From Tabrizicola sp. (GTDB taxonomy: Bacteria; Pseudomonadota; Alphaproteobacteria; Rhodobacterales; Rhodobacteraceae), in NCBI GenBank assembly GCA_012032275.1, contig JAAURK010000006.1, forward strand, positions 1 to 36,941: a DNA stretch of 36,941 nt, in the 5' to 3' direction. This document shows positions 15,838 through 18,863 of this stretch, one piece after another. Below the pieces are notes generated by a model that did not search any database, was not told where the DNA came from, and was given only the letters and a program-made list of their open reading frames with translations. How positions within the stretch are numbered: the stretch's first letter is position 1; each line of letters starts with the position of its first letter. Position numbers and translations under genes: made by a program.

Positions 15838-16574
15838 ATGCAGGATCTCTCGATGCATGTGCAGTGCGGAGATTGTCCGATCCGTCACCGCGCGGTCTGC
15901 GCGAGATGCGATGATGACGAACTCGTCCAGCTGGAGAAGATCAAGTATTATCGCAGCTATCAGTCCGGCCAGACGATCATCTGGTCCGGCGACCGGATGG
16001 ATTTCGTGGCCTCTGTCGTTACCGGCATTGCAACGCTGACCCAGACGATGGAGGACGGGCGCCGGCAGATGGTCGGGCTATTGCTGCCATCCGATTTCGT
16101 CGGGCGCCCCGGAAGGGCGGTCGCCGCTTATGACGTCACCGCGACCACCGATGTGCTGATGTGCTGCTTTCGCAGCAAACCCTTCGAAGAGATGATGCTG
16201 AAGACGCCGCATGTGGCCCAGCGTCTGCTGGAAATGACGCTGGACGAACTTGACGCGGCGCGGGAATGGATGCTGCTGCTTGGCCGGAAAACCGCGCGGA
16301 GAAGATCGCCTCGCTGATCGCCATCATTGCGCGGCGCGACAGGGCCCTTCAGCTCCGGCACGATCAGACCCCGATCACCGTCGATCTGCCCCTGACGCGC
16401 GAGGAGATGGCGGATTATCTCGGCCTGACGCTGGAGACGGTGAGCCGCCAGGTTTCGGCACTGAAACGGGACGGGGTGATCACGCTGGAGGGGAAGCGCC
16501 ACGTCGGCATTCCCGATATGGACCGGCTTCTGGAAGAGGCGGGCGACGATGCCGATGGCGGCATGCTGTCCTGA
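15838..16574 (+). CDS. fnrL: FnrL-type oxygen-sensing regulator, frameshifted
   Basis: An anaerobic Crp/Fnr-family activator, about 245 residues when corrected. Cysteines at 10, 13, 21 and 24 (CGDCPIRHRAVCARC) plus Cys109/110 supply candidate [4Fe-4S] ligands; the sequence closely follows Rhodobacter FnrL. A cyclic-nucleotide-binding-like beta roll, a dimer helix, and a C-terminal HTH with ETVSRQVSALKRDGVI follow, where the E..SR recognition pattern predicts TTGAT-type sites. One missing G near 16299 breaks the frame within the dimerisation helix. The C-terminal HTH is fully preserved in the next frame, so a sequencing error is likelier than a null mutant. Without correction the product would lack its DNA-binding domain. 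The ATG at 15838 lies 15 bases after an FNR box. Confidence 0.9.
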
Positions 16575-16779
16575 CCGGGCGAGGATTGCGGCGACCAAGC
16601 GCGGATGTTCTCGCCGACGGCAGGCTTTCCCGAAGACCCGGGCAGCGCAGCTTCGGGCCGCTGGCGCGCTGATGAAGTCGCCGCACGGGGCGCGAAAAAC
16701 GCGAAAGGCGAAGGCGGAGGAGAGCCCACTTTGACCAATGCTGCGCGATGCATGAAGGTCAGCATCTCAAAGATCGCCA

Positions 16780-16810
16780 TTGACTTAGAGTTACTCTAAC
16801 CCGCTACCCA
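16780..16810 (+). promoter_or_regulatory. MerR-type operator/promoter
   Basis: A perfect palindrome TTAGAGT-T-ACTCTAA at 16785-16799 lies between a TTGACT -35 (16780-16785) and a weak TACCCA -10 (16805-16810). The spacer is 19 bases, the over-long spacing characteristic of promoters twisted open by MerR-family activators. It ends 24 bases before the merR start codon, implying autoregulation and control of the downstream gene. Confidence 0.75.
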
Positions 16811-16834
16811 AAGGTCAGAGGAACACTTGCAAAG

Positions 16835-17200
16835 ATGAGAATAGCTGAAGCGTCGGAAGCCTCTGGGCTATCCGCACATACCATAAGATTTTATGAGAAG
16901 TCGGGAATGCTGCCGGAGATCGAGCGTGGCACCGATGGCCATCGTCGGTTCACACCTCGTTTGATCGACTGGCTGACTCTGCTCTACTGGCTGCGCGAAA
17001 CCGGCATGTCACTCAAGCAAATGCGTCGGTTCACAACGCTTGCAAAAGCAGGCGATGCCGGTATCGAAGATCGTCGCCAAATCTTGTTGGATCACGCGGA
17101 AACGCTGAAGTCCAAACGAGCAACGCTCGAAAAATGCGAAAGTATCCTCACCATCAAGATCGCCAGCTATGGCCCGGACACCAAAGAGGATGACCCATGA
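16835..17200 (+). CDS. MerR family transcriptional regulator
   Basis: A 121-residue regulator. The N-terminal winged HTH reads MRIAEASEASGLSAHTIRFYEKSGMLP with GHRRFTPRLIDWL, followed by a dimerisation coiled coil (about residues 74-110). There is one Cys (Cys101) in the C-terminal part and no metal-binding Cys/His cluster, so it is closer to the AdhR/NmlR-like group than to CueR or MerR proper. The inducer is unknown. It overlaps the next gene by 4 bases (ATGA at 17197), and the pair shares the palindromic promoter just upstream. Its lower GC and freer use of A/T-ending codons, compared with fnrL and uspA on either side, suggest acquisition by transfer. Confidence 0.9.
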   Translation: MRIAEASEASGLSAHTIRFYEKSGMLPEIERGTDGHRRFTPRLIDWLTLLYWLRETGMSLKQMRRFTTLAKAGDAGIEDRRQILLDHAETLKSKRATLEKCESILTIKIASYGPDTKEDDP

Positions 17201-17991
17201 AGTTTGCCTATCTAATCGAACCGCCGTTCAACTACCTCGATGCGACAGGCCGCGTCACGGGTTGCGATGTGGAGCTCGCCCGGCATGTATTTGTGGAAAT
17301 TGGCTTTGCGGGCTTTGAGCCGGTTGAGACGGAATTTGCCGAACTTTTACACGGTCTTGGCGATGGCCGTTGGCGCATGACGACCGGTCTTTTTGGAACG
17401 GATGAACGCAGAAAGAATGCATTGTTCAGCCGCCCGATCTGGGCGCTGCCCGACGGGCTACTGGTGGCTAGCGGTAATCCGTTGGGTTTGAGCGGCTATC
17501 AATCCGTTGCCGAAAATTCTGACGTCCGACTAGCGGTTATCCGCGACCAGTTTCAGCATCGCTCGGCAGTTGAATTTGGCGTCAGTGCAGACCGCATCAT
17601 GATTTTCGAAACATACACCGAAGCCGCACGAGCTGTTCGCGAAGGCATGGCCGACGCTTATGCCAGCGTTAGTCGAGCGCATGGCGGCTTTATCGAGCAG
17701 AACCCGGAATGGGGGCTGGAACTGATCCTTGTGCCAGATTCAGAAAAACCTCCTGCGTTCGGGTCATTCGCGTTTGGTTTGAACGACGCAGACCTGCTGA
17801 ATGATGTTGATGCTGTTCTTTCGCAGTTTCTTGGGACCGATGCTCATCGGAACATGGTCGCTTCTTTCGGTTTCTCGACTCCCGAAGTCGATATGGTGGC
17901 AGCCCGTCACATCAAAAGCTTACTTTGGCCGTGGCACGCGCAAAGTCCGCTCCGTCCCGCGTGCCGACCGTTGCATGAGCCCTCCCGGTAG
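17197..17991 (+). CDS. Substrate-binding-protein-like protein without signal peptide (SBP_bac_3 fold)
   Basis: A 264-residue protein resembling family-3 amino-acid-type solute-binding proteins. PPFNYLDATGRVTGCDVELARHV begins the first lobe, GRWRMTTGLFGTDERRKNALFSRPIW marks the ligand-binding region, and AVREGMADAYASVSRAHGGF the second lobe. The reading frame begins directly in the fold at MKFAYLIEPPFNY. No signal peptide, lipobox or membrane helix precedes it, and no permease or ATPase is nearby, so a cytoplasmic ligand-sensing or sequestering role with the overlapping MerR gene is conceivable. The last about 20 residues, rich in Pro/Arg, look unlike the family and could reflect 3' drift. The stop codon lies inside a perfect hairpin. 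Confidence 0.82.
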   Translation: MKFAYLIEPPFNYLDATGRVTGCDVELARHVFVEIGFAGFEPVETEFAELLHGLGDGRWRMTTGLFGTDERRKNALFSRPIWALPDGLLVASGNPLGLSGYQSVAENSDVRLAVIRDQFQHRSAVEFGVSADRIMIFETYTEAARAVREGMADAYASVSRAHGGFIEQNPEWGLELILVPDSEKPPAFGSFAFGLNDADLLNDVDAVLSQFLGTDAHRNMVASFGFSTPEVDMVAARHIKSLLWPWHAQSPLRPACRPLHEPSR

Positions 17992-18010
17992 CGCGTGCCC
18001 GCTACCGGGA
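17983..18010. terminator. Perfect hairpin between convergent SBP-like gene and uspA
   Basis: A perfect 10-bp inverted repeat (TCCCGGTAGC / GCTACCGGGA) with an 8-base loop lies in the 27-base gap between the convergent genes. The SBP-like gene's TAG stop is part of the left arm. There is no U tract on either side, so it may be a bidirectional or rho-assisted terminator or an mRNA-stabilising structure. Confidence 0.5.
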
Positions 18011-18018
18011 TGGGCGCT

Positions 18019-18863
18019 TCAATGCGCCATCAGGACCGGCAGCCCTCCCTCGGCCAGAAGGTCGCGGGTGGCGCCGCCGAGAATCGCCTCGCGGAACCGC
18101 GAATGGCCGTAAGCTCCCATCACCAGAAGATCGGCATCGCTGTCCATTCCGTGACGCAGCAGCATCTCGGACACGCGCGGCAAGGTCTTTGCCAGAACCG
18201 TGACATCGGCCTTCACCCCATGACGCACCAGCATCTGGCAGAGAAGCCCGCCGGGATCCGACCGCTCCGGCCCATGTGTCGGCGGGTCGATCACCGCGAT
18301 GTCGACCAGTTCGGCCCGTTTGAGAAACGGCAGCGCGCGGCGCACGGCGGTCATCGCCTCGCGGCTCTGGTTCCAGGCCACCACGATGCGCCGCGGCTCG
18401 GCGGTCTTCAGCCCGCCGTCGGGCACGACGAGGACAGGCGCCATTCCGTCGAAAAGCGCCGCCTCCAGTATCGCCTCGTCATCATGGTGCGTCCCTCGCC
18501 ATAGGGTTTTCGCAGCACCACCAGATCGGCATAGCGGGCGCGCGAGCCCACGATCTCGCTCAGCGCCCCGATCTGCGACACCGCCGTCTCCAGCGTGGAG
18601 CGCAGGGCCTGCGTTTGCGCCTGCAGCGCGGTCGTCGCCGCCTTGCCCACAAGATGCGCCTCTTCCTGCGCCCGCTCGGTCGCCGCGGCGATGATCACCG
18701 CACCGGAGCCGACATAGGAATATCCGATCTGGGTCCGGTCGACGCCCAGCGCAAGCACATCGAGATGCCCGTCCGCCTTGAGCGCGATCTGCGCTGCGGC
18801 GGGAATCGCGGTATTCGCGGCATCGGTGGACGCGGCGACCGTCAGAATCGTTTTGTATGCCAT
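18019..18863 (-). CDS. uspA: Universal stress protein (tandem UspA), frameshifted
   Basis: About 281 residues after correction, with two UspA-type halves: the first starts MAYKTILTVAASTDAANTAI, and the second contains RRIVVAWNQSREAMTAVRRALPFLKRA. The second half carries the nucleotide-binding GAYGHSRFREAILGGATRDLL motif (G-x2-G-x9-G-type). The frame breaks near 18490 (one missing base): GEG continues as a DDEAILEAALFDGMAPVLVVPD reading. The gene lies back to back with ccoN, as does the corresponding usp gene (orf277) in Paracoccus and Rhodobacter, and an FNR box sits 41.5 bases before a start point matching a TACTGT -10. Anaerobic induction through FnrL is therefore likely. A good AAGGAG precedes the ATG. 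Confidence 0.87.

Follow-up and report, generated by a model that had tools for sequence, protein, structure and literature searches.

MerR regulators bind long-spacer promoters and distort them upon a signal, which leads to transcription, and type-II substrate-binding proteins (SBPs) are textbook extracytoplasmic receptors. Promoter spacers of 19-20 bp are a hallmark of MerR regulation (PMC9909328), and in the NmlR/AdhR group of short MerR proteins, which lack an effector domain and use palindromic operators within such spacers, a cysteine of AdhR senses aldehydes (PMC3499171). Among the SBPs, the ectoine-binding protein EhuB is reported to hold the ligand carboxylate by an arginine, together with aromatic side chains (PMC6344544, PMC2871039), and cyclohexadienyl dehydratase (PheC/CDT) arose from an amino acid binding protein of the same fold (PMC7683729). 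A literature search for a cytoplasmic SBP linked to a MerR regulator returned nothing relevant, which is weak evidence of absence because subscription literature mostly fell outside its scope.

The locus described here lies in a 36 941-nucleotide stretch of DNA from Tabrizicola sp. (hereafter, the window), which corresponds to an entire contig of an assembly that is incomplete (3.95 Mb, 391 contigs, 85.8% complete). Its features are listed in Table 1. As reported in the first-pass annotation, which was made from the sequence alone, a MerR gene and an SBP_bac_3-like gene overlap by the four bases ATGA (17197-17200). The two genes are a real conserved unit. When some 85,000 species genomes were scanned, 38 loci of the SBP family were recovered, and a MerR gene adjoins the signal-less SBP gene in 22 of these, with the identical 4-base overlap in 20; in the remaining two, the genes are separated by a 67-bp gap (L021) or by an SDR gene (L033). 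One of the 20 overlapping pairs, in Roseicyclus (L037, 4642-5488), combines an intact MerR gene and promoter with a broken SBP gene.

Table 1. Features of the MerR-SBP locus (coordinates are those of the window)
Feature	Coordinates	Strand	Remarks
Conserved upstream element, 32 bp	16732-16763	+	Common to the nearest Roseobacter-type copies of the pair
MerR-type promoter/operator	16780-16810	+	-35 TTGACT, palindrome, 19-bp spacer, -10-like TACCCA; conserved before MerR in 22/22 loci, nearly unique in the genomes tested
MerR-family regulator, 121 aa, NmlR-like	16835-17200	+	W52 replaces the NmlR/AdhR Cys; family-invariant Cys101
Signal-less EhuB-like substrate-binding-fold protein	17197-17991	+	Family domain, residues 1-236 (17197-17904)
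Read-through tail of the SBP ORF	17905-17991	+	TGA of nearest relatives is CGT in the window; ORF terminates within the hairpin
Perfect hairpin	17983-18010	.	11-bp arms, 6-nt loop, no T-run; attributed to the 3' side of uspA

The -35 box (16780-16785) and the -10-like box (16805-16810) enclose the palindrome TTAGAGT-T-ACTCTAA (16785-16799), so that the 7-1-7 operator and 19-base spacer originally read from the sequence are borne out; this palindrome occurs once in the window, with zero occurrences expected by chance, and the strict operator pattern occurs once in the entire assembly. All 22 MerR-bearing loci share the operator-promoter TTGACttrGAGTnnCTCnAA-n5-TA, in which TTGAC lies 51-62 bp upstream of the MerR gene, the palindrome comes next, and TA is invariant at the 19-bp position, a spacing characteristic of MerR-family promoters; the operator was found upstream of none of the 16 SBP genes that lack an adjoining MerR gene. 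With up to two mismatches allowed, a pattern that diverged operators would escape, 15 of the 18 carrier genomes, including that of the window, contain a single site, two contain none, their own operators deviating by more than two mismatches, and one (G1134) contains two, the second of which precedes another MerR gene and an aldo-keto reductase gene. Apparent double sites in two other genomes are the same palindrome read on the opposite strand. As the tested genomes contain hardly any further copies of the operator, the MerR protein appears to control only its own operon, which would make the SBP its regulated output. The 32-bp element upstream of the promoter is present in a single copy in the window's genome, and the genome of locus L004 carries two similar copies elsewhere; an RNA structure in this element finds no support (z -1.3 and +1.0).

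The regulator matches PF13411 (59.1 bits) and PF00376 (47.7 bits), both above the curated cut-off, in keeping with the N-terminal winged-helix domain of the family, and residues 73-111 form, in the predicted structure (pLDDT over 90), the long C-terminal dimerization helix. The nearest solved structure is HiNmlR (5d90, 40% identity), with which the protein shares the short architecture, described in the PDB as being without a sensor domain, as well as the palindromic operator within a long promoter spacer. Unlike the NmlR/AdhR proteins, however, it scores only 82.8 bits against the NmlR equivalog NF041849, the cut-off being 175 bits, and the reactive cysteine near position 54 is replaced by an invariant tryptophan, whereas a different cysteine, Cys101, is invariant both in this MerR clade and in sister MerR proteins. 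Given that the aldehyde-sensing cysteine of AdhR is a tryptophan here, a carbonyl signal cannot be assumed.

The second protein of the pair belongs to SBP_bac_3, and EhuB is its nearest family by every measure, but it scores below the EhuB cut-off (TIGR02995, 128.7 against 190.9 bits) and differs from EhuB in lacking both a signal peptide and the ehuCDA genes. In the window, one residue only precedes Met1 in frame, and signal peptides are absent from all of the approximately 50 family members, in which only short or hydrophilic sequence lies in frame ahead of the start. When 60 rows of family members with at least 36% identity (∼50 distinct loci) were compared with the 22 EhuB-type relatives, whose identity does not exceed 34%, the peak 13-residue hydropathy before the start was at most 1.11 in the former and at least 1.89 in the latter, all 22 of which have a hydrophobic leader. 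The absence of a signal peptide is therefore a family trait and not an accident of the window copy, and a signal peptide hidden by an indel is rejected as none is present in any relative. Signal-less relatives are also found in Paraburkholderia and Aminobacter, whereas genuine EhuB, as encoded on Klebsiella plasmids, starts with a leader of 40 aa and lies next to ehuCDA. No ABC permease or ATPase consistently adjoins the SBP genes, a permease domain being detected in 2 of 116 neighboring proteins, a survey that rejects a conserved transporter partner. Neither a concealed signal peptide nor a conserved association with transport genes, both named at the outset as grounds for refuting the original proposal, was thus borne out.

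The predicted SBP model (pLDDT 88.6) has EhuB with ectoine (2q88) as its best match by both Foldseek and VIA-align (Z 28.4, 2.6 A, 242 residues), and 2q88 is the best match by sequence as well. R71 and F11, F47 and F66 align with EhuB residues that we take to line the ligand cleft, and the position at which amino acid binders secure the alpha-amino group with an aspartate is occupied by an invariant valine (V158). From this combination, the simplest guess is that the ligand is carboxylated but is not an ordinary alpha-amino acid. Matches over 400 bits to DoeA, which is involved in ectoine degradation, are present in 13 of 20 carrier genomes and are weak or partial in the other seven, including the incomplete genome of the window. 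Ectoine catabolism is accordingly not required as a shared context and, DoeA not being general among the carriers, ectoine as the SBP ligand is unproven.

Sister MerR proteins are encoded in units with SDR genes (L118, L119, L120) or aldo-keto reductase genes (L123, L172). These units share with the MerR-SBP pair Cys101, the two-gene layout and, in some cases, the operator itself, but the partner is an oxidoreductase without a binding-protein fold. SDR genes are also found within the SBP operon in three lineages, either as MerR-SDR-SBP (L033, L116) or as MerR-SBP-SDR (L024); beyond this, no third gene common to the copies of the pair was detected, and most copies share none. VOC/glyoxalase and RidA genes lie convergent to the MerR-SDR-SBP operon (L033, 5815-6704; L116, 2267-3145). 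By analogy with these oxidoreductases and neighbors, the theme of the unit is probably the removal of a harmful small metabolite.

The explanation that we favor, with about even confidence, is that of a mobile, autoregulated unit under an NmlR-like MerR protein, with a cytosolic EhuB-like protein as the only evident output that binds or converts a small carboxylated compound. The pairing, the operator, the lack of export, the fold and the mobility are observed, whereas the signal, the ligand and the role of the SBP as buffer or enzyme we infer as follows: bound to its long-spacer promoter, MerR would distort this promoter when the signal is present and so give rise to the MerR-SBP message, a mechanism known for the family and supported here by the conservation of the site; the SBP, staying in the cytoplasm, would close on a small compound that bears a carboxylate and is probably cationic or cyclic, and would sequester or convert it; and the falling level of the ligand would then switch the unit off. 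The proposal of a cytoplasmic binding-protein fold under MerR control, already made in the first-pass annotation, gains support. A broader claim, to which we give somewhat less than an even chance, is that binding proteins of an extracytoplasmic type have, as a family, settled for good in the cytoplasm, where they serve as an intracellular metabolite sponge or a new enzyme induced through a MerR switch that governs a single operon, and that the unit has spread between bacteria as a two-gene cassette. If this is true, a conserved signal-less family with a promoter dedicated to it would be a clear example of the SBP fold at work in the cytoplasm, well suited to studying how binding proteins turn into buffers or enzymes. 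Being compact, and with a single operator in nearly every genome, the unit should lend itself readily to reconstruction as a reporter, and the search for its ligand should be feasible.

A sub-case of the favored explanation, possible but rather doubtful, is that the SBP has turned into a cytosolic enzyme that is induced by MerR to degrade its substrate. Cyclohexadienyl dehydratase shows that this fold can give rise to an enzyme (PMC7683729), the solved structures closest to the SBP include ancestral CDT proteins, this MerR group is otherwise partnered by enzymes, and two signal-less Paraburkholderia relatives are encoded beside a cyclic amidohydrolase and an MFS transporter. However, the general acid of CDT, Glu173 (numbering of PMC7683729), aligns with the family-invariant A161, the cleft retains its carboxylate-binding arginine, as a binding protein would, and no catalytic motif is recognizable in the SBP.

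The first-pass annotation had offered a sensor, buffer or enzyme-like role for the SBP as the partner of MerR; of these, a mainly sensory role is weakened by the present results and is probably wrong. In the explicit form of this reading, which we consider unlikely, the inducer would be bound by the SBP, which would then associate with the short MerR protein so that the two act jointly as a split ligand-responsive regulator. Such a complex would suit a MerR protein of the sensor-less type, the 4-base translational overlap and the correlated divergence of the two proteins (r = 0.88 for the protein distances, with 0 of 2000 permutations as high), although shared ancestry alone would give part of this correlation. 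However, with an operator that is nearly unique in the genomes tested, an SBP that only senses would have no output beyond itself, and the sister MerR proteins beside the SDR or aldo-keto reductase genes manage without an SBP. Furthermore, solo SBPs without MerR account for 16 of the 38 loci and, of the 14 solo-SBP genomes searched, nine have no MerR match at E <= 1e-10, the best match in the rest (60%) lying beside an SDR gene. Solo SBPs being this common, the function of the SBP does not need MerR, and the SBP is not just a MerR accessory. In the tree of the family (57 rows), MerR-bearing members are not confined to the surroundings of the window but also occupy deep branches; judged from this branching pattern, the association would seem to be ancient and to have been lost several times.

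The SBP ORF of the window encodes 264 amino acids compared with about 236 in the family, the extra 28 resulting from the loss of the stop codon, which is TGA in the family but CGT in the window (17905-17907). The resulting tail is modeled with low confidence (pLDDT under 50 at residues 244-261). Because of this loss, the ORF runs into the hairpin at which the unit had been thought to end. The hairpin itself is indeed perfect but its assignment to the unit, as a terminator, is rejected: it is not shared by the relatives of the pair, and several relatives without the pair have a similar hairpin directly 3' of uspA, hence its attribution to that gene. That the SBP is a functionless, signal-stripped EhuB copy carried passively beside MerR, to which the lost stop codon of the window and the broken copy in L037 might point, is highly improbable and is refuted at the family level by the conservation of about 50 intact relatives, 48 invariant columns among the 38 rows of the SBP alignment, the conserved operator and the consistently signal-less start, although for the window copy alone it might hold if that copy is destabilized by its tail.

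The pair was probably acquired horizontally by the genome of the window, as originally proposed from its composition and position, a conclusion that rests on four observations. First, the GC content of the pair is lower than that of the flanks (54.6% versus 64.6%), and so is the GC3 of the two genes compared with their neighbors (0.56-0.59 versus 0.77-0.84), GC3 being the only measure of codon adaptation used. Second, the presence of the SBP family is patchy: within the taxonomic family of the window, 12 of 395 genomes contain a member, and at the class level 2 of 385 do, with the window counted in both. Third, the fnrL-uspA interval, which the unit was said to split, is a variable site without a fixed junction: the two genes do adjoin in three relatives (43-89 bp), but in eight others the interval is 0.5-2.8 kb (overall range 43 to 2767 bp) and in most cases contains other ORFs, with PhzF-like, GFA-like and DNA polymerase IV-like examples named by reading the sequence and not by family search. 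These relatives, which include no genome of the same genus, gave no sign that the pair is native at the locus. Fourth, the nearest copies of the pair, in Leisingera, Ruegeria, Tateyamaria and a Rhizobiaceae-group MAG, are found in unrelated contexts, and hemN, fnrL, uspA and ccoN are absent from the examined flanks of the family loci searched. Homology to the Leisingera copy (L001) extends from 16724 to 17960, which are likely the limits of the transferred piece. Both genes bordering the unit are split by frameshifts: that in uspA (18477-18492) suggests indel errors in the contig, and that in fnrL (near 16298, within 16280-16317), next to a run of G, may reflect either an assembly error or real decay.

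Some of the relatives are located on plasmids. On Paraburkholderia plasmids (L128, 3051-6732; L131, 3053-6732), the signal-less EhuB-like genes follow the cyclic amidohydrolase and MFS transporter genes beside a Tn3 transposase, and a solo SBP family member on the Aminobacter plasmid pAA04 (L126, 1-7705) is close to Hachiman, Fic and TIR-domain genes.
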